Part shown: one piece after another, positions 19,905-36,724 of the stretch
How the letters are laid out: each line of letters opens with the position of its first letter
How positions within the stretch are numbered: position 1 is the stretch's first letter
From: Balneolaceae bacterium ANBcel3
GTDB lineage: Bacteria > Bacteroidota > Rhodothermia > Balneolales > Natronogracilivirgulaceae
Assembly: GCA_030012235.1 (NCBI GenBank)
Contig: JASCXY010000006.1
Location: 1 to 38,486 of the forward strand
Direction: 5' to 3'
DNA: 38,486 nucleotides
Notes under the pieces: model-generated
What the model saw: only the letters and a program-made list of their open reading frames with translations
Told to the model about the DNA's origin: nothing
Database searches by the model: none
Position numbers and translations under genes: made by a program

Positions 19905-20204
19905 TCACGTTTTTACAATGATATCGCGAATAATTTCTTCATTCACGGCCTTATTCAATTTTTTTGCGATCATGTGTCTCTGCATATGTATTTCGTGTCT
20001 CCAGGAAGGGTCATCCACAAACAAGACAAGCCGACTCCCCTGAAACTTTAAGTTATGCACTTGCTCTGTTATTGCTTTTCCGATCACTCTCGGCCAGAGT
20101 GACAGAATCATTCCGCGCTTTAAAGAAACCCTGTGCGGATACGATTCCACAAAATCATCCAGCAAACGTCCCAATGCCTGAGGCTGTTTTTTTCTGAAAG
20201 ACAT
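19905..20204 (-). CDS. dciA: DciA-like DUF721 protein (helicase loader)
   Basis: DciA is the ancestral bacterial loader or operator of the replicative helicase DnaB. The 99-residue protein is the DUF721 domain alone. It has a basic N-terminus (SFRKKQPQALGRLLDDFV), the LWPRVIGKAITEQ motif with the conserved Trp-Pro-x-x-Val-Gly, and LVLFVDDPSWRHEIHMQRHMI. It starts 4 bases after the recF stop on the same strand, so the two replication/repair genes are coupled. No dnaC is visible. Family call is firm; the loader role is taken from studied homologues. Confidence 0.9.
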   Translation of the reverse strand: MSFRKKQPQALGRLLDDFVESYPHRVSLKRGMILSLWPRVIGKAITEQVHNLKFQGSRLVLFVDDPSWRHEIHMQRHMIAKKLNKAVNEEIIRDIIVKT

Positions 20205-29941: not shown

Positions 29942-30148
29942 ATGTTGCGTATCCTTCTGTTCATTATCATTATTTACATGGTACTGCGAATAGCCCTTCG
30001 GCTGCTTCTTACGGAGTCTCCGGCACAAAAGCGAGCACGGGTATACAGTCAACAGGATAATGAACGGAGAAAAAACGCTCGGCCAAAGTTTGAAGACGTT
30101 GAAGATGCCGAGTTCGAGGAAATCCCCAAAGACTCTAAAAAGTCTTAA
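29942..30148 (+). CDS. Small membrane protein (DUF4834-like)
   Basis: The 68-residue protein starts with one membrane helix (LRILLFIIIIYMVLRIALRLLL, residues 2-23) and continues as a charged cytoplasmic tail with RRKNARPKFEDVEDAEFEEI. This architecture resembles the short DUF4834-type proteins of Bacteroidota, where the KFEDVEDAEFEEI close is typical. The call is from memory of the pattern. The ATG is 3 bases after the kinase stop, so it belongs to the same operon. The function is unknown. Confidence 0.75.
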   Translation: MLRILLFIIIIYMVLRIALRLLLTESPAQKRARVYSQQDNERRKNARPKFEDVEDAEFEEIPKDSKKS

Positions 30149-30175
30149 AAAAAACGGCTTTTACCCCTCATCTGT

Positions 30176-30205
30176 TTGCATATATGCGTTAAAAAAACGT
30201 ATCTT
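30176..30205 (+). promoter_or_regulatory. Putative promoter of tRNA-Leu
   Basis: TTGCAT at 30176-30181 and TATCTT at 30200-30205 are 18 bases apart and 18 bases before the tRNA. The same stretch also fits the Bacteroidota pattern of TTTG followed by TAnnTTTR (30175-30178 and 30200-30207). Confidence 0.45.
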
Positions 30206-30222
30206 TAAAATCTACTCCAAAT

Positions 30223-30306
30223 GCCCTGGTGGTGGAATTGGTAGACACGCTATCTTGAGGGGGTAGTGCCTTAATTGGCGTGCTGGTTCGAGTCCAGTCC
30301 AGGGCA
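30223..30306 (+). tRNA. tRNA-Leu (GAG)
   Basis: An 84-base class II tRNA. The acceptor stem is GCCCTGG/CCAGGGC, the anticodon stem CTATC/GGTAG encloses TTGAGGG, so the anticodon is GAG. The T loop has GGTTCGAGTCC. No CCA is encoded. It marks the left border of the accessory region. Confidence 0.95.
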
Positions 30307-30309
30307 CAT

Positions 30310-30349
30310 AAAGCCTTGTAAGCTATTAGCTTGCAAGGCTTTTGTTTTA
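30310..30349 (+). terminator. Rho-independent terminator of tRNA-Leu
   Basis: AAGCCTTG and CAAGGCTT pair, with a second inner stem AAGCT/AGCTT, and the T-rich run TTTTGTTTT follows. It begins 4 bases after the tRNA end. Its outer stem sequence is shared with the argD terminator at 35475-35512. Confidence 0.85.
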
Positions 30350-30426
30350 TAGGTACCAACTATAGTACAAACAAACACGCCTCTCTATTTATTTTATTGC
30401 TCCAACAGAATTAATCGTGCCTTGAA

Positions 30427-30514
30427 TTTCAGGAACCTTCAACCGTTGAGAACCTGGCATTATGAAAACAGCTATACGTTGCTCATCCGAAATCTGGCAA
30501 CAAGCCGTACGTAT
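30427..30514 (+). repeat. Direct repeat D, copy 1
   Basis: An unidentified repeat. Its 75-base core (30440-30514) matches 35229-35303 without gaps, with 8 mismatches by my count, in the same orientation. The two copies bracket the FISUMP and toxin-antitoxin region. Inside it ATACGTTGC and GCAAC...CGTAT could pair around a bulge. A hairpin GGTGCTC/GAGCACC follows directly in this copy only. Short open frames across it look like by-products. Confidence 0.7.
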
Positions 30515-30625
30515 GGTGCTCGATTATTGAGCACCGGTAAGCGTGAAGCTGAATACCCCCGCCACTACCGCCAGGACGCAGCCTTCGCGCCCTGCGGGAC
30601 GCTCAGGCTATAAATCAAAGGGTTC

Positions 30626-30741
30626 ACCCGTGTGGAATACGGGTATATAAAAACTATGCCATCTTATACCCGTACGATTTGAACACCCCTTATCCAAAAG
30701 CAAGCAATGGCAAACGTTGTTCAAATCGTATTCCACCGGGT
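30626..30741. repeat. Inverted-repeat element at FISUMP stop codon, copy 1
   Basis: A 116-base structured element between the repeat D stretch and the stop codon of the single-domain FISUMP gene. The outer arms (30626-30641 and 30727-30741) pair over about 15 bp with one bulge. Within them are CGGGTATA/TATACCCG (30640-30647, 30665-30672) and TACGATTTGAACA/TGTTCAAATCGTA (30673-30685, 30718-30730). The whole folds as a three-way junction in RNA or single-stranded DNA. A near-identical copy lies at 32778-32910, also ending on a FISUMP stop codon. Confidence 0.85.
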
Positions 30742-31433
30742 TAATCCTTTATGCAACGGACAGAGACCCCGAGCGCCCGATCGTTGCCGGTCATGTAGGC
30801 ATCGTTACTATCGAAGTACAGGCGCCGAACGCCAGAACCAGACACGGTACTTGACCAATAGTGCCCGCTAGAACCGACAATGCCGAGCGAACCATTGCTG
30901 CTGTGACGGTAGCCCGCCAGGGGCAGTTTCAGAGGAGAGTTGAACGCCCCGGATAAGTTATTGCTGGACCAACTACTTCTCTCAGCTTTCCATTCTGCCT
31001 CGGCGGGCAATCGATACCCAGGCGGACACGGGTTGTTGATTCCGTTTACTCCCTGCCATAAATCATCGTTCTGAGGGCTCCGCCAGTCGTAATTGGCTCC
31101 TGAGTTGCTGGTTATAAAAATCCCGTGGTCCGGCTGGTCGGAACTGCTAATAGTGCTGGTTTTATCAGAATCACGCCTCTGGTGCCCGTCGGCCGCACGG
31201 CCCCACTGATACAAATCGCCGTAGGCCTGCTCTTCGGTGGAAGAGGTGGCCGCTCGCGAAGCCCCCAAGTTTCGATCCATCCATACCTGCCCCGTCTCGG
31301 GATTGGTCACCTCGACCACCTCGGTATCGATATCCCGGGGCCAATTGTCGTCATCATCCTTGACCGAACCAAATATGCCGAAACCACTCTCGACCAGAAG
31401 TAAGGCTAATGATACTATATACTTTACTATCAT
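30741..31433 (-). CDS. Secreted single-domain FISUMP protein
   Basis: The 230-residue protein has a signal peptide (MIVKYIVSLALLLVESGFG) and then one FISUMP (Fib_succ_major) domain, a C-type-lectin-like or FGE-like fold of unknown ligand. Domain markers are VTNPETGQVWMDRNLGASRAA, YGDLYQWGRAADGHQ, NNPCPPGYRLPAEAEW, HYWSST and VSVRCIKD at the C-terminus. The last 60 residues differ from the neighbouring copies at scattered single positions while the framework is fixed. The gene looks more GC-rich than the housekeeping genes around it. The stop codon is the first base of the inverted-repeat element. A surface-binding role is inference. Confidence 0.88.
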   Translation of the reverse strand: MIVKYIVSLALLLVESGFGIFGSVKDDDDNWPRDIDTEVVEVTNPETGQVWMDRNLGASRAATSSTEEQAYGDLYQWGRAADGHQRRDSDKTSTISSSDQPDHGIFITSNSGANYDWRSPQNDDLWQGVNGINNPCPPGYRLPAEAEWKAERSSWSSNNLSGAFNSPLKLPLAGYRHSSNGSLGIVGSSGHYWSSTVSGSGVRRLYFDSNDAYMTGNDRALGVSVRCIKD

Positions 31434-31468
31434 TGTTTTCTAAGATTATTTTAAAAATTTCCCCTTTC

Positions 31469-31476
31469 ACCCGGGT
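31469..31476. repeat. Collapsed site of the inverted-repeat element
   Basis: The 8 bp palindrome ACCCGGGT sits on the stop codon of the FISUMP fragment. Its left flank (TTCACCC) equals the left end of the two full elements, and its right flank (GGGTTAATCC) equals their right end. It reads as the element with everything between the arms removed, or as a never-filled site. Confidence 0.6.
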
Positions 31477-31682
31477 TAATCCTTTATGCAACGGACAGAG
31501 TAACCGAACGCCTGGAGGTTGCTATGCATGCTGGCATCGTTGCTAACGATTCCCGGGGTTCGTGCATTGGTATCGGATACAGTACTTGACCAATAGCTGG
31601 CTAAAGAGCCTACATTGAAGAGTGAACCATTGCTGCTGGCGCGTGTGCCTGCCAAGAGCAGCTTGAGCGGAGAAGCTACAAA
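31476..31682 (-). pseudogene. 5'-truncated FISUMP fragment
   Basis: Only the C-terminal third of a FISUMP domain remains, starting at SPLKLLLAG and running through SYWSSTVSD to YSVRCIKD. The upstream sequence bears no FISUMP similarity, and no signal peptide or start of its own is credible, although an ATG lies at 31691. Compared with the intact copies it has lost the LYF block (here RTPGIV). It appears to be a leftover of recombination or duplication among the FISUMP copies. Confidence 0.8.
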
Positions 31683-31793
31683 TACAAGCATCAGGAATCA
31701 TCCTTTCTGCAACACTGCAAAAATGTCAAAAATTTAATTAAAAAAGAAGTTCCTGCTATTGTTAGCTATTCCATACTTGCACTTTCGAGCCTT

Positions 31794-32075
31794 TTATTTC
31801 GTCGTCAATTGTATAGTCAACCCCAAAGCACTCGCAACCAACAAAAGATTCGATATTCTGACGTCTTCACCATTTTCAACCCGTGAGATATATGGCCTTT
31901 TTTTTCCGACAATTTCTGCGAGTTTTTCCTGGCTCATGTTGAGTTCCTTTCTTCTGCTTCGGATAATTTCACCGAAGTAGTAAGAATAAGCGTTATCACG
32001 AAATTTTTCACGACGGTCAGAGTCTTTTTGTCCGTATCGCTCGTCTAATAAGTCTTTTGCTTTATACTTTTTCAT
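31794..32075 (-). CDS. HigA-type antitoxin, XRE-family HTH
   Basis: Antitoxin that neutralises the toxin encoded just upstream and represses their promoter. The 93-residue protein has a charged N-terminal part and an HTH from about residue 38 to 90: LNMSQEKLAEIVGKKRPYISRVENGEDVRISNLLLVASALGL, the standard XRE helix pattern. Its ATG overlaps the toxin stop by four bases. The toxin-first order is that of HigBA modules. Confident as a type II antitoxin; the exact subfamily is less sure. Confidence 0.9.
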   Translation of the reverse strand: MKKYKAKDLLDERYGQKDSDRREKFRDNAYSYYFGEIIRSRRKELNMSQEKLAEIVGKKRPYISRVENGEDVRISNLLLVASALGLTIQLTTK

Positions 32076-32416
32076 AATTCCGCGTTTTTAAGATATTCCT
32101 CCAAAATTCTTTCCGCTTTTTTTATCCCTACCAGATAATCTTTATTTGATTTTTTAACAAATCCATTCAAGCATACGGCTTTTTTTGATTCAGAAAAGTT
32201 TACATGGTCAATGGCAAAAACGATTACCCGGTATTCGTTTCCTGCTTTTATACGTAATTCGTAAAATTTTGTATTCTGTAATTTCTTCACAAATTTAGAA
32301 TGAACGATCTCAAATTCTTCCATGATTAATATCAGTTGGAAAAATTTGTCCGAGACCCTTTTTCCTTGCTTGTCTATAAAGTCCAAACAGAACTCTGTAA
32401 TAGCAATCTCTCTCAT
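32072..32416 (-). CDS. HigB/RelE-type toxin
   Basis: Predicted ribosome-dependent mRNA interferase. The 114-residue protein matches the Gp49-like or HigB branch of RelE-fold toxins: an N-terminal LDFIDKQGKRVSDKFFQLI helix, KKLQNTKFYELRIKAGNEYRVIVFAIDH with the conserved Tyr-Glu-Leu-Arg strand and Arg, and AVCLNGFVKKSNKD preceding the C-terminal helix. It is the first gene of the pair and lies directly behind a palindromic operator. The pair sits inside the repeat-rich region, as is common for mobile or stabilising modules. Confidence 0.9.
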   Translation of the reverse strand: MREIAITEFCLDFIDKQGKRVSDKFFQLILIMEEFEIVHSKFVKKLQNTKFYELRIKAGNEYRVIVFAIDHVNFSESKKAVCLNGFVKKSNKDYLVGIKKAERILEEYLKNAEL

Positions 32417-32425
32417 ACTCCGAAT

Positions 32426-32441
32426 GTAACGAATTCGTTAC
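32426..32441. promoter_or_regulatory. Palindromic operator of the toxin-antitoxin pair
   Basis: A perfect 16 bp palindrome, GTAACGAATTCGTTAC, lies 9 bases before the toxin ATG. Autorepression of type II pairs through such palindromes is established. That the HigA-type protein binds this one is inference. Confidence 0.7.
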
Positions 32442-32572
32442 TAAAATCCAAGGTTTTCGCCGGCTTTTCCGGCATCGGCACTGACAGGTATCAAGCATCA
32501 AGCTAGTATGGATTTCTTTTGGCTGCAACGTCTTCGTCTATCGGTATTGAGTTAATTACTTCCGATATGTGT

Positions 32573-32769
32573 TTATATCCGATAAATGTCCCCACTATTT
32601 TGAAGCCGCTTCTTTAAATACATTCTGCCATAGTGTGTCTTATAATATTTCTCCCGAATTAATTTCGATTCTTTACTTTTACAGGCTTCAAAAAAAAACA
32701 AATCTACTGGCCTTCTATCTTTCGTTGATGCAACCTGACCTTTTTCATGTTTGGCAAATCGTATTTCAC
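32573..32769 (-). pseudogene. N-terminally truncated GIY-YIG nuclease
   Basis: The frame reads IRFAKHEKGQVASTKDRRP, VDLFFFEACKSKESKLIREKYYKTHYGRMYLKKRL, the C-terminal two thirds of the small GIY-YIG endonuclease family. The N-terminal part with the GIY and YIG strands is missing. At its upstream end the frame runs into the inverted-repeat element and then the antisense of a FISUMP gene, so the long open frame there is not a real protein. Curiously the junction bases CAAATCGTATTTCACCGG are nearly identical to the end of the inverted-repeat element. Confidence 0.75.
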
Positions 32770-32777
32770 CGGAGTTC

Positions 32778-32910
32778 ACCCGTGTGGAATACGGGTATAT
32801 AGAAACTATATAATCATACGTAATATACCATCTTATACCCGTACGATTTGAACATCCCTTATCCAAAAGCAAGCAATGGCAAACGTTGTTCAAATCGTAT
32901 TCCACCGGGT
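32778..32910. repeat. Inverted-repeat element at FISUMP stop codon, copy 2
   Basis: Second copy of the structured element, 133 bases, ending on the stop codon of the large FISUMP gene. Outer arms are 32778-32793 and 32896-32910. Inner stems are at 32792-32799/32834-32841 and 32842-32854/32887-32899. All stem sequences equal those of copy 1. The extra 17 bases lie in the loop of the CGGGTATA stem, so the fold is preserved while the loop varies. Confidence 0.85.
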
Positions 32911-35117
32911 TAATCCTTGACGCAACGCACAGAACATCCGGATGCCCGGTAAGAGTAGCGCATGCTGGCATTGCCGCTAACGAAGTACAGATTCCATGCG
33001 CTAGAAGCAAACACAAACACGGAACTCGACCAATAGCGGCCGTGGGAGCCGACATTCAAGAGCGAACCATTTTCGCTGCTACGGTAGCCCGCCATGGGCA
33101 GTTTCAGCGGAGAGTTGAATGCACCGGATGTGTTGTTACTACTCCAGCTTTCTCTTTCGGCATTCCACTCCGCTACAGTTGGCAAACGGTAGCCGGCAGG
33201 ACAAGGATTATTAATCCCTTTTACTCCTTGCCACAGATTATCGTTCTGCGGCCTGCGCCAATCCCTATTGGCTTCAGAAGTACTCAAGATAAAACTCCCG
33301 TGGCCCGGTTGGTCGGAACTGCTCAAGGTGGATGTAATAGAAGAGTTGCTCCTCTGATGTCCGTCAACCCCGCGGCCCCATTGGTACAGGTCGCCGTAGG
33401 CCAGTGAGTCGGTGGAGGAAGTAGCAGCGCGAGATGCACCAAGGTTACGATCCATCCATACACGGCCTGTTAGCGGGTTGGTTACATCAACCACTTTCGT
33501 TTCGGTATCCCAGGGCCTGCCACCGTCATCTCCATTGTCATCTTGATACTCAAAATTAGCCATAAGACGGATATTCCTGGCTGGCATGGTTAAAGTGGTG
33601 TTGGCTGCGTTTTCATCTGCAATGTAGTCGATGTCGCCACTCCAATTGACAAACACATAGCCACTGTTAGCCATGGCTGTGATGGTGAACTCGTCGCCCT
33701 CATAATATTCAGCGGCACCACTGACCGATCCGCCCCACCATGGAGAGCTACCGAGTTCCAAAGTGTAGAAGCTCTTTATGCAGCGCACAGAGTAACCGGA
33801 CGTCCGCTGGGTGTTGCTAGTACCGGCTCTTGTGGTAAAAACATACAGGAACTGTGTGAGCATTTCATACACGGTACTCGACCAATATCGGGCTTCGGTG
33901 CCGACACCAAAAATTGAACTACTGATGCGTGCACGGGAGCCTGACAGAGGCAGTTTCAGTGGGGATTGAAATGCACCCGAAGCATTGCTACTGGACCAGC
34001 TGTTTAGCTCGGCATTCCACTCCGCATCGGTTGGCAGTCGGTAACCAGCAGGACACGGGTTATTAACCCCGTTTACACCCTGCCACAAATCATCGTTCTG
34101 AGGATTACGCCAGTCCCGGTTATCATCGGATGACAAGATAAAATTCCCATGACCTGGCTGGTCGGTAGTGCTGGCAGTACTGGTTGTGTCGGAATCACGT
34201 TTCTGGTGACCATCGGCCGCACGCCCCCATTGGTACAAGTCGCCGTAGGCCAGTGAGTCAGTACTTGAAATCGCAGCGCGAGATGCACCCAAATTACGGT
34301 CCATCCATATACGGCCTGTTACCGGGTTGGTTACATCAACCACTTCCGTTTCGGTATCCCGGGGCCAGTCGCCAGAATCCTCCTGCCTGGTGGTAAGAAC
34401 AAGGGTGCCCGTATCCAGATTTTCTAAGGATGCAATGGTAACTTCTTTACTCTGATATCGTTGGGTTTCTTTTACTACGACCCGGTATCCCATATCACGA
34501 TCCATCTGCTGCATACTGCTGTAAATCCGGTTTGATCGTTGTCCACCTTGCCTCACTGTGATTTCAGAAGCGCCGCCGCCTATACCTGCACTCAAAAAAG
34601 TCATACTCTGTGCAAGGGAATACCCCTCTCCCTGTACCCGGATGATATACTGCCCCTGTGAAAAATTTCCACCCAAATTGACCTGTATCTCATTGCTGCC
34701 AGCGCTTATGTCAACATGGTTGCTCAATAATCTTTGACCCAAAATATTATAAATAGAAATTACAGCCTGTGTTCGTTCAGGGACATGAAAAGGAACGGTA
34801 GTCGTAGGATTGAACGGATTGGGATAGGAAGATCCAAGTTTAAATTCCGAAGGGATATCCGATCCGTCCTGAGGGTCTGCGGAGGTAGGCTCAACCTGAT
34901 ATACCAGTGTAAACTCGCCATTATCGTCGGTTATATCCGTGGCGATTTGCTCGTCCTTTTCATTGAAAAGCATAACGGAAAGTCCGGACACCGGATCCTG
35001 GTCCGGATCAACCAAAGTGCCAGTAACCTCATACTGTGCGGATGAACCGATGCACAATAAAGCGAGCACGATGAGTAAAATGATATGAATTGAAATAGCT
35101 GCGTGAATACGAAACAT
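32910..35117 (-). CDS. Large secreted protein with two FISUMP domains
   Basis: The ATG at 35117 is chosen over an upstream one because it has a strong AGGAGG 4 bases before it and begins the signal peptide (residues 1-27, ending GSSA). The 735-residue protein then has: 28-78, a carboxypeptidase-regulatory-like beta domain; 97-165, a PNPFNPTTT...YNILGQ...GQYIIRV domain like the C-terminal sorting or FlgD-Ig-like domain, but internal; about 251-448, FISUMP 1; 451-523, an InlB B-repeat-like domain (YEGDEFTITAMANSGYVFVNWSG); about 536-735, FISUMP 2. The two FISUMP domains share framework blocks such as WMDRNLGASRAA and NNPCPAGYRLPT. They differ mostly in the last 60 residues. A surface or secreted binding protein is inferred. 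Confidence 0.88.
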   Translation of the reverse strand: MFRIHAAISIHIILLIVLALLCIGSSAQYEVTGTLVDPDQDPVSGLSVMLFNEKDEQIATDITDDNGEFTLVYQVEPTSADPQDGSDIPSEFKLGSSYPNPFNPTTTVPFHVPERTQAVISIYNILGQRLLSNHVDISAGSNEIQVNLGGNFSQGQYIIRVQGEGYSLAQSMTFLSAGIGGGASEITVRQGGQRSNRIYSSMQQMDRDMGYRVVVKETQRYQSKEVTIASLENLDTGTLVLTTRQEDSGDWPRDTETEVVDVTNPVTGRIWMDRNLGASRAAISSTDSLAYGDLYQWGRAADGHQKRDSDTTSTASTTDQPGHGNFILSSDDNRDWRNPQNDDLWQGVNGVNNPCPAGYRLPTDAEWNAELNSWSSSNASGAFQSPLKLPLSGSRARISSSIFGVGTEARYWSSTVYEMLTQFLYVFTTRAGTSNTQRTSGYSVRCIKSFYTLELGSSPWWGGSVSGAAEYYEGDEFTITAMANSGYVFVNWSGDIDYIADENAANTTLTMPARNIRLMANFEYQDDNGDDGGRPWDTETKVVDVTNPLTGRVWMDRNLGASRAATSSTDSLAYGDLYQWGRGVDGHQRSNSSITSTLSSSDQPGHGSFILSTSEANRDWRRPQNDNLWQGVKGINNPCPAGYRLPTVAEWNAERESWSSNNTSGAFNSPLKLPMAGYRSSENGSLLNVGSHGRYWSSSVFVFASSAWNLYFVSGNASMRYSYRASGCSVRCVKD

Positions 35118-35214
35118 GGAGCCTCCTCGATGGACTAATTTTATATGGGGCATAATTTTAATAAATATAAATAATAAATATTGAATACTATTCCACAAAA
35201 AAATCGTACCGGAG

Positions 35215-35303
35215 TTTCAGAGAGACTCCAACCGTTGAGAACCTGGAATTGTGAAAACAGCTATACGTTGCTCATCAGAGGCCCGGCAACAAGCCGCACG
35301 TAT
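35215..35303 (+). repeat. Direct repeat D, copy 2
   Basis: Second copy of the repeat at 30427-30514, same orientation, about 100 bases upstream of the large FISUMP gene start. The 75-base core 35229-35303 has no gaps against copy 1. Five of the eight mismatches cluster in one 9-base block, which in both copies is the loop between ATACGTTGC and GCAAC. Confidence 0.7.
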
Positions 35304-35545: not shown

Positions 35546-36724
35546 CTACTTCATTTCATCCAGAACTTTTTTCAGTATGCATACTGCTGAGAAAAGGTCG
35601 TCTTTTGAAATGACCAGTGGAGGCACAAAACGCATCACATTCACCGATGCGGCATTGGCTAAAACGCCGAGTTCTGCCATTCGCTGAACTACCGGGCCAC
35701 CTTCAATATCGAGCTCTGCTCCGGTCATGAGTCCTATCCCCCGAATATCTTTGACAAGAGGATGATCGGCAAGTTTCTCATTTAGGACTTCCATCAGCCA
35801 CGCTCCTTTCTCTTCAGACTGTCGAACCAGGTCTTCTCGTTCCACCGTTTGAAGTACCGCATTTGCAGCGGCACATGCCAGGGCATTTCCTCCAAACGTA
35901 GTTCCGTGATCACCGGGCGAGAGCGCTGAAGCGATTTCTTCTTTGGCGAGAACCGCACCAATCGGAACTCCCCCACCCAGGCCTTTTGCCAGAGTAAGAA
36001 TGTCGGGTTTTACGCCACTGTGCTCATACGCAAACATGCGGCCTGTTCGTGCAATCCCCGTTTGAATTTCATCAAAAATCAGCGGTACCCCATACTCATC
36101 ACATACCTTTCGGGCATGACGCAGAAACTCAGGATCCGCCGGACGAACACCTCCTTCTCCCTGAACCGGCTCAATGACAACAGCGGCCGTCTGAGCGTCT
36201 ACCGCTTCACTCAGTGCTTCTTTGCTGTTGAAAGGAATTTGCCTGAAGCCCGCCGGCATGGGTTCAAATCCCTCCTGGAACTTCTTTTTTCCGGAAGCAA
36301 TGCCGGCAATGGAGCGTCCATGAAAACAGCCCTCCATCGAGAGAATCGGACCTTTTCGCCCCTGTTTGTTAGCATACTTACGTGCCGTTTTATACGCACC
36401 TTCCATAGCCTCCAGTCCAGTGCTGCACAAAAAGACACGATCCAACCCGGATAACTCTGCCAGCTTCGCAGTCAGTTTTGCCTGTGGCACCGTTGAATAA
36501 AAATTGGATACATGAACCAGTTTTTCAGCCTGGTTTTTAATGGCGTGAACCAGTGCAGGATGGCCATGCCCCAAACTATTTACGGCTATTCCTCCCAGTA
36601 CATCTATATATTCTTTACCATTTGTATCCCACACCCGTGCCCCTTTTCCGTGGCTAAGAGTAATGGGAAGTCTTTTATATACCGGAAAATGATACTTTAG
36701 ATCTAATTCCTGAATTTCTTTCAT
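35546..36724 (-). CDS. argD: Acetylornithine/class III PLP aminotransferase
   Basis: PLP enzyme transferring an amino group between acetylornithine (or succinyl-DAP/ornithine) and 2-oxoglutarate. The 392-residue protein is the size of ArgD. The cofactor lysine is K247 in LTLAKGLGGGVPIG. The Asp that holds the pyridine nitrogen is D218 in IFDEIQTGIARTG, and the CFHGRS and GTTFGGNALACAAA blocks are present. The usual SGAEANEAAIK block reads STGLEAMEGAYK here, so substrate preference may deviate and the argD name is tentative. No other arginine genes are near. It is a single gene with its own terminator. Confidence 0.85.
   Translation of the reverse strand: MKEIQELDLKYHFPVYKRLPITLSHGKGARVWDTNGKEYIDVLGGIAVNSLGHGHPALVHAIKNQAEKLVHVSNFYSTVPQAKLTAKLAELSGLDRVFLCSTGLEAMEGAYKTARKYANKQGRKGPILSMEGCFHGRSIAGIASGKKKFQEGFEPMPAGFRQIPFNSKEALSEAVDAQTAAVVIEPVQGEGGVRPADPEFLRHARKVCDEYGVPLIFDEIQTGIARTGRMFAYEHSGVKPDILTLAKGLGGGVPIGAVLAKEEIASALSPGDHGTTFGGNALACAAANAVLQTVEREDLVRQSEEKGAWLMEVLNEKLADHPLVKDIRGIGLMTGAELDIEGGPVVQRMAELGVLANAASVNVMRFVPPLVISKDDLFSAVCILKKVLDEMK

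Follow-up and report, generated by a model that had tools for sequence, protein, structure and literature searches.

Efficient homing of the diversity-generating retroelement (DGR) of phage BPP-1 requires a hairpin or cruciform immediately downstream of the variable repeat (VR), and comparable structures are described for other DGRs in the available part of that work (PMC3240598); in an excerpt of a further source, the hairpin requirement holds for a subset of DGRs (PMC3521204). MITE-like sequences are reported at the DGR loci of Thiohalocapsa PB-PSB1, where some of them replaced the reverse transcriptase (RT) gene or the template repeat (TR) (passages of PMC10907252), and Fib_succ_major appears among the DGR target domains listed in a section of PMC4159848, with 9 proteins. 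Homing in the best-studied DGR depends on a structure behind the VR, and how VRs gain, swap or lose such a structure is not described in these literature passages. Here we analysed a stretch of 38,486 nucleotides (contig JASCXY010000006.1, positions 1 to 38,486; hereafter the window) of Balneolaceae bacterium ANBcel3, together with the rest of its assembly (GCA_030012235.1), which is the sole genome of its genus among the genomes searched.

A single reverse transcriptase of this genome scored above the Pfam cut-off, and it is located on contig C235. It is adjoined by a bAvd-type accessory gene, which was above the Pfam cut-off and below that of the NCBIfam Avd model, and by an AAC-codon-rich TR, of which 183 nt were used for the counts given below. 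RT, accessory protein and TR, the parts that a DGR requires, are all present in the same genome. Between a VR and the RT lies an open frame with a weak match to MutS domain I (L001:332-1300, contig C235). The DGR RT of another genus in the family (G004:C7:109488-110701) matches in two pieces that overlap, at 99% and 97% identity, which suggests a frameshift and, unless contamination is the cause, a recent horizontal transfer.

The FISUMP proteins are recognised by two models, Pfam Fib_succ_major and NCBIfam TIGR02145, and gene 1 of the window is barely above the cut-off of each. Ten VRs, one of them internal, were derived from 12 matches; the match of the TR itself was not counted and one on contig C124 (39% identity) was left out. 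When the four VRs of C235 were compared with the TR, 23-33 of the 51 adenines were changed versus 0-7 of the 132 other positions, which is the signature of a DGR. The VRs of the window showed the same excess of adenine changes but have drifted. FISUMP gene 1 (30741..31433, minus strand), identified by its Pfam and NCBIfam matches and its VR counts, ends in a C-terminal VR with changes at 25/51 adenines and 15/132 other positions. On the same strand, an open frame with two FISUMP domains (32910..35198) carries a terminal VR (27/51 and 19/132) and an internal one whose match ends at 33774 (30/51, and 40 of the 131 other positions that were aligned). Between them lies a 5'-truncated FISUMP fragment (31479..31676, minus strand) that is nearly all DGR VR; its match to the neighbour is confined to residues 165-230, so that it amounts in essence to an orphaned VR, with a weaker DGR pattern (23/51 and 30/132). 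The VRs on contigs C85 and C335 differ from the TR at 32/132 and 34/132 non-adenine positions, respectively. Going by these patterns, the FISUMP genes appear to be hypermutated and look like DGR targets whose 3' ends are adenine-mutated VRs. The C235 VRs ending at 19979 and 22892 are alike at 131 of 132 non-adenine positions, each differing from the TR at 7, so that a second TR may be absent from the assembly; the ungapped comparison of VRs left out C124, C85 and the internal VR of the window, and a 6-nt insertion in the VR next to copy 2 of the element described below was skipped to keep the register. One DGR target on C235 (L025:8253-10895) is a protein of 880 aa in which protein kinase and PEGA domains (Pfam) are combined with a C-terminal FISUMP/VR part.

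The element found at the ends of some of these VRs is a non-coding, three-armed hairpin of about 120-140 bp, composed of an outer stem and two inner arms. Two full copies of the window are located at VR stop codons on the minus strand, copy 1 at 30623..30744 and copy 2 at 32775..32913, and both bear the flanks that the initial annotation had claimed for them. A genome search returned a third full copy at a VR stop codon (C235:19979-20119), and a partial second left end, with 2 mismatches in 19, lies directly downstream of copy 2 (32755..32773, minus strand). The genome thus has three full copies, each behind a VR stop and carried by 3 of its 10 VRs, the other matches being limited to this partial left end and to short stretches of 14-20 nt; likewise, when up to 3 mismatches were allowed, the left-end 19-mer was detected at four places, once in each full copy and once in this partial left end. 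The folds of the two window copies, computed on both strands, gave z values of -6.25 to -7.56, and none of 200 shuffles per fold was as good. Twelve outer pairs are kept in 3/3 copies, and the element is, like a MITE, short, non-coding and bounded by terminal inverted repeats; however, the varied genomic sites of a MITE were not seen, since all three copies stand at VR 3' ends and the partial left end adjoins one of these copies on its downstream side. As a candidate target-site duplication, the 5-bp AACCC stands on both sides of two of the copies, with AACCC/AACTC at the third, but it is ambiguous in that these letters also belong to the inverted repeat.

The assembly, about 95% complete, yielded no autonomous partner with the same ends. 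By eye, no T run of an intrinsic terminator comes after the stem, which is followed by GGGTGAACCCTTTGATTT, GGGTGAACTCCGG and GGGTAAACCCTTTGACAC, and an Rfam search of window positions 30100-33500 gave 4 matches up to E = 1, none of them at the elements. No BLAST match of the element was judged real in 96 relatives and a 394-genome phylum sample, two partly overlapping sets. Searches of GTDB contigs and viral contigs, restricted to exact 20-mers, gave few matches, judged to be chance, as were the few in phages and plasmids, where those of Listeria cover 25% of the query. The matches at loci L029, L030, L031, L063, L064 and L065 lie inside long open frames and were also attributed to chance, and no relatives of P0001 were confirmed in viral contigs. 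The element was therefore found in a single genome. A candidate decayed left end on C335 (p 0.016) was discarded as unreliable, because element-free sibling VRs on C235 reached p 0.017-0.026 in the same test, in which C85 gave 0.097.

Between copies 1 and 2, identity extends to 112 of 115 aligned positions and to 31/32 of the unpaired first loop, while the C235 copy agrees with them at 104/115 and 118/132 positions, and at 24/32 and 25/32 of the first loop. BLAST identities that include length differences are 86% and 79% for copy 1 against the other two. The third codon positions in the constant parts of the host genes are, by contrast, 43.0, 49.6 and 46.7% identical, the lowest value being that of the hosts of copies 1 and 2. 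The block common to copies 1 and 2 has sharp edges, starting within AAGGATTAACCC and ending at GGGTGAAC. Since the elements are 89-97% alike over aligned positions, with sharp edges, and host third positions only 43-50%, the element probably moved between VRs after the host genes had diverged. The stems vary at 1 of 72 columns and the loops at 12 substituted and 19 gapped columns of 68, so that the stems look constrained and part of the identity may reflect constraint and not youth. In a codon tree, the gene ending at C235 19979 grouped with its C235 neighbours (98.2/77) and the other groupings were weak; a first tree, computed without the window genes, had no well-supported fork. With this weak support, the argument on vertical inheritance is drawn from pairwise divergence only.

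These data bear on the possibility that the element is immobile, a conserved long homing hairpin of the DGR target that has been kept by descent in some VR genes and has disappeared from the rest. The requirement for a hairpin just 3' of the VR for efficient homing, described for BPP-1 in the part of PMC3240598 referred to above, speaks in favour of it, as do the much higher conservation of the stems compared with the loops and the lower drift of VRs that carry the element, with 7, 15 and 19 of 132 non-adenine changes versus 30 in the truncated VR, 32 in C85, 34 in C335 and 40/131 in the internal VR. However, the siblings that lack the element and bear a short double hairpin show 0, 2 and 7 such changes, as few or fewer, so low drift is not peculiar to the element, and C85 has drifted in spite of a hairpin nearby. 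Moreover, the relatives have no such element, its edges are sharp, and the unpaired first loop is 31/32 identical between genes that are far apart at third positions. We consider an immobile homing hairpin improbable on these grounds. That VRs lacking a hairpin drift faster was not retained beyond a description, C85 having a 7-bp hairpin 50 nt downstream and yet 32/132 changes.

We compared the sequences flanking filled and element-free sites. The three sibling VRs of C235 without the element continue with TAACACCACTTTGACACTTTGCCTGACCG... and a short double hairpin, whose z values are -3.46 to -4.95. For the relatives, six flanks were taken from 17 listed loci; the remainder had their end within a longer protein, coincided in part with others, went unparsed or, in the case of L056, gave a weak partial match. 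Similar VR flanks with strong folds were found in G004, G013 and G011_a (z -3.59, -3.01 and -3.75), and those of G001_C67 (z -0.28), G016 (0.22) and G011_d (-1.80) fold poorly. Element-free sites, whether of C235 siblings or of relatives, read TAACACCACTTTGA, TAAAATGATCCTTTGA or similar, and their short hairpins, with 6-bp stems and 4-nt loops, are nearer to the classic DGR hairpin. The right flank of the C235 copy matches those of its three element-free siblings at 22/25, 32/42 and 32/42 positions, and copy 1 is followed by a flank that agrees with those of the C235 siblings at 33/44, 36/50 and 36/50 positions and with an element-free VR flank of another genus (G001_C67) at 38/40; none of 1000 shuffles was as good in any of these comparisons. 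The right flank of copy 2 matched none of the 12 flanks compared with it. The two filled sites have separate closest element-free counterparts, which suggests that the element reached this position on two or more occasions, or else that it alone was transferred.

Behind copy 1, AGCCTGAGCGTCCCGCAGGGCGCGAAGGCT (30580..30609, minus strand) aligns with the hairpin found behind element-free DGR VRs; a hairpin was drawn there in one of two folds (z -0.30, versus -1.61 in the fold where it was not), neither of which stands out. A replacement of the short hairpin by the element was considered and not retained, the results being mixed: besides the two folds behind copy 1, the short hairpin folded poorly behind the C235 copy (z 0.05 and -0.39), and behind copy 2 there was no such hairpin (z 0.94).

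At the truncated VR, the initial annotation had described the flanks of the full elements as joined directly, and saw there the empty counterpart of the filled sites. The letters of this junction, TTCACCC (31466-31472) and GGGTTAATCC (31473-31482) on the plus strand, were confirmed, as was the palindrome ACCCGGGT at 31469-31476, which overlaps the minus-strand TAA (31478-31476) of the truncated FISUMP frame. The element's site is indeed found both filled and element-free, although the element-free sites are elsewhere, in three C235 siblings and related genera, and not at 31469. Within 100 nt downstream of a VR, ACCCGGGT occurs only behind the truncated one and behind none of the nine other VRs of the genome. 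In relatives, 17 distinct FISUMP domain ends were read on both strands, and neither ACCCGGGT nor the element's GGTGGAATACG follows any of them within 100 nt; a stop comes after 12 of these ends. Given that ACCCGGGT is in no element-free site checked, 31469-31476 is not a pre-insertion site, and neither an empty site nor insertion at a palindrome is supported there. The flanks TTCACCC and GGGTTAATCC equal the ends of the full copies, as would be expected if the palindrome were the original target into which these had inserted, but element-free siblings and relatives read TAACACCACTTTGA or TAAAATGATCCTTTGA in its place and the palindrome accompanies none of the other ends just listed, which makes this origin very unlikely. 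Precise excision, also proposed, would give back a site like TAACACCACTTTGA, and none was seen at 31469.

Read on the minus strand, the junction (31466..31482) joins the right end of the element (GGGTGAA) to its left end (TTAACCCGG) with a 3-nt microhomology, CGG, and the 10-nt run CCCGGGTGAA after the stop consists of left end plus right end. The hairpin is absent, 4-5 bases of either element end are left, and the flank behind the fragment has no notable fold (z -0.40). The sequence TAACC[CGG]GTGAA is the product expected from a deletion between TAACC[CGG]TGGAATACG and CCACA[CGG]GTGAA, which is why hairpin deletion is preferred among the three mechanisms initially proposed; the joint fits it, but is so short that it may have arisen by chance. 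The run CCCGGGTGAA was equalled in 6 of 20,000 shuffles of the same stretch (p 0.0003). On the right side, however, the match breaks off past GGGTGAA (AGGGG at the joint versus CCCTT in copy 1); once the left CCCGG is given, 20% of random continuations extend to 10 nt when a join anywhere inside the element is allowed, and this flank, aligned locally with the element's initial 40 nt, gave no significant match (p 0.73). The case thus comes down to five nucleotides that match at a fixed position and another five beyond them.

The same figures sustain the main rival explanation, in which the truncated VR never had the right end of the element and a decayed left end alone, or a chance palindrome, lies beside the leader of the next FISUMP gene. 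Past TTAACCCGG, 13 of 18 ungapped positions fit a decayed left end, a level that also arises elsewhere by chance; the extra match past CCCGG is at the 20% chance level for any internal join, the left-end alignment has a p of 0.73, and a partial left end is known at 32755-32773. Against this, the exact terminal-arm run GGGTGAA comes immediately, within a 10-nt run whose shuffle p is 0.0003. We regard a left end or chance palindrome as possible, if on the whole unlikely. The sequence at 31469-31476 is best read as a collapsed copy that would have arisen by deletion across the hairpin base at the CGG microhomology, with the reservation that the joint is short and may be due to chance. The palindrome ACCCGGGT, the proposed stub of this copy on the stop codon of the VR fragment, is by itself a minor scar; palindromes at the ends of target genes may accordingly be deletion stubs and not insertion targets, which calls for caution.

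The FISUMP loci are accompanied by other features. A pair formed by an HTH antitoxin-like and a Gp49-like toxin-like gene (31794-32075 and 32072-32416, minus strand) is located between two FISUMP loci. The whole FISUMP/toxin-antitoxin cluster is enclosed by two direct repeats of about 103 bp (30413-30514 and 35202-35303), which are 84% identical and occur nowhere else in the genome; they possibly mark an island boundary. C-terminal fragments resembling integron integrases, below the family cut-off, are found at the starts of two contigs (C36:1-528 and C11:2-184). Such fragments, and a toxin-antitoxin pair between FISUMP genes, would be in keeping with the element being an integron attC site and the FISUMP genes cassettes. 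We scanned the window, the whole of C235 and parts of C335, C85, C36 and C11 for RYYYAAC/GTTRRRY boxes 45-160 nt apart with at most 1 mismatch between boxes, and obtained just two hits, one at 36440-36498 of the window and one at C235:9945-10040; no VR lies at either of them. The attC reading was rejected because no attC box pair lies at the VRs, and it is scarcely credible.

With moderate confidence we propose a composite explanation, in which the FISUMP genes are DGR targets, the hairpin element lies past VR stops and spread after the genes had diverged, and one copy collapsed at 31466-31482. The DGR core on C235 would act on FISUMP targets in the same genome, and the hairpin element has come to rest just past the VR stop codon, in at least two different flanks, its landing place being upstream of the position where element-free VRs bear a short DGR-type hairpin. 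Its spread among VRs would be later than the divergence of the host genes. In the copy behind the orphaned VR fragment, a deletion between the CGG of the left base (TAACC[CGG]TGG) and that of the right base (CCACA[CGG]GTGAA) would have taken the hairpin and left ACCCGGGT, most likely via slippage or cleavage at the hairpin exposed during replication. The DGR parts, the mutation pattern of the VRs, the copies of the element with their position, and its filled and element-free flanks are direct observations, and mobility, mode of insertion and deletion are deduced from them by comparing sequences. A bolder possibility is that of a selfish hairpin specialised on DGRs, which would land via the nick or target-primed reverse transcription at the 3' boundary of the VR and supply a hairpin by which the VR stays competent for homing, its collapse leaving the orphan, drifting VR at 31469. 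This seems to us quite improbable; if true, a DGR-specialised hairpin would be a parasite or a domesticated part of the hypermutation system.

When compared with known systems, the element resembles an integron attC site as a structured site behind a gene with a toxin-antitoxin neighbour, and differs from it in having no attC box pair at the VRs. Like the hairpins and cruciforms of BPP-1 and other DGRs, as presented in the accessible part of PMC3240598, it consists of inverted repeats directly 3' of the VR, beside the stop codon. Those hairpins have GC-rich stems of 7-10 bp and 4-nt GRNA loops, whereas the element is three-armed and about 120-140 bp long and lies, in two flanks, upstream of sequence aligning with the short hairpin of element-free VRs; its long arms and loops do not correspond to a classic homing hairpin, with a 7-10 bp GC-rich stem and a 4-nt loop at 4-34 bp from the VR. 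With the MITE-like sequences of Thiohalocapsa PB-PSB1 it shares the nature of a short stem-loop repeat linked to DGR loci. According to the passages of PMC10907252, those repeats occur in arrays and match the terminal inverted repeats that bound intact IS elements, while the element described here stands at VR 3' ends, and an IS sharing its ends was not detected. The FISUMP proteins of PMC4159848 have the same DGR target domain, and the passage on them is silent on an inserted hairpin. No report of an inserted hairpin element at VR ends was found in the portions of open-licence full texts that were searched, which does not prove its absence from the literature. An element landing at this place provides natural gain and loss variants of the structure at VR ends within one genome, whose effect on VR diversification is directly testable. 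MITE-like elements at DGR loci are already known; what appears to be new is a site-specific hairpin element at the ends of DGR VRs, with filled, element-free and probably collapsed states.
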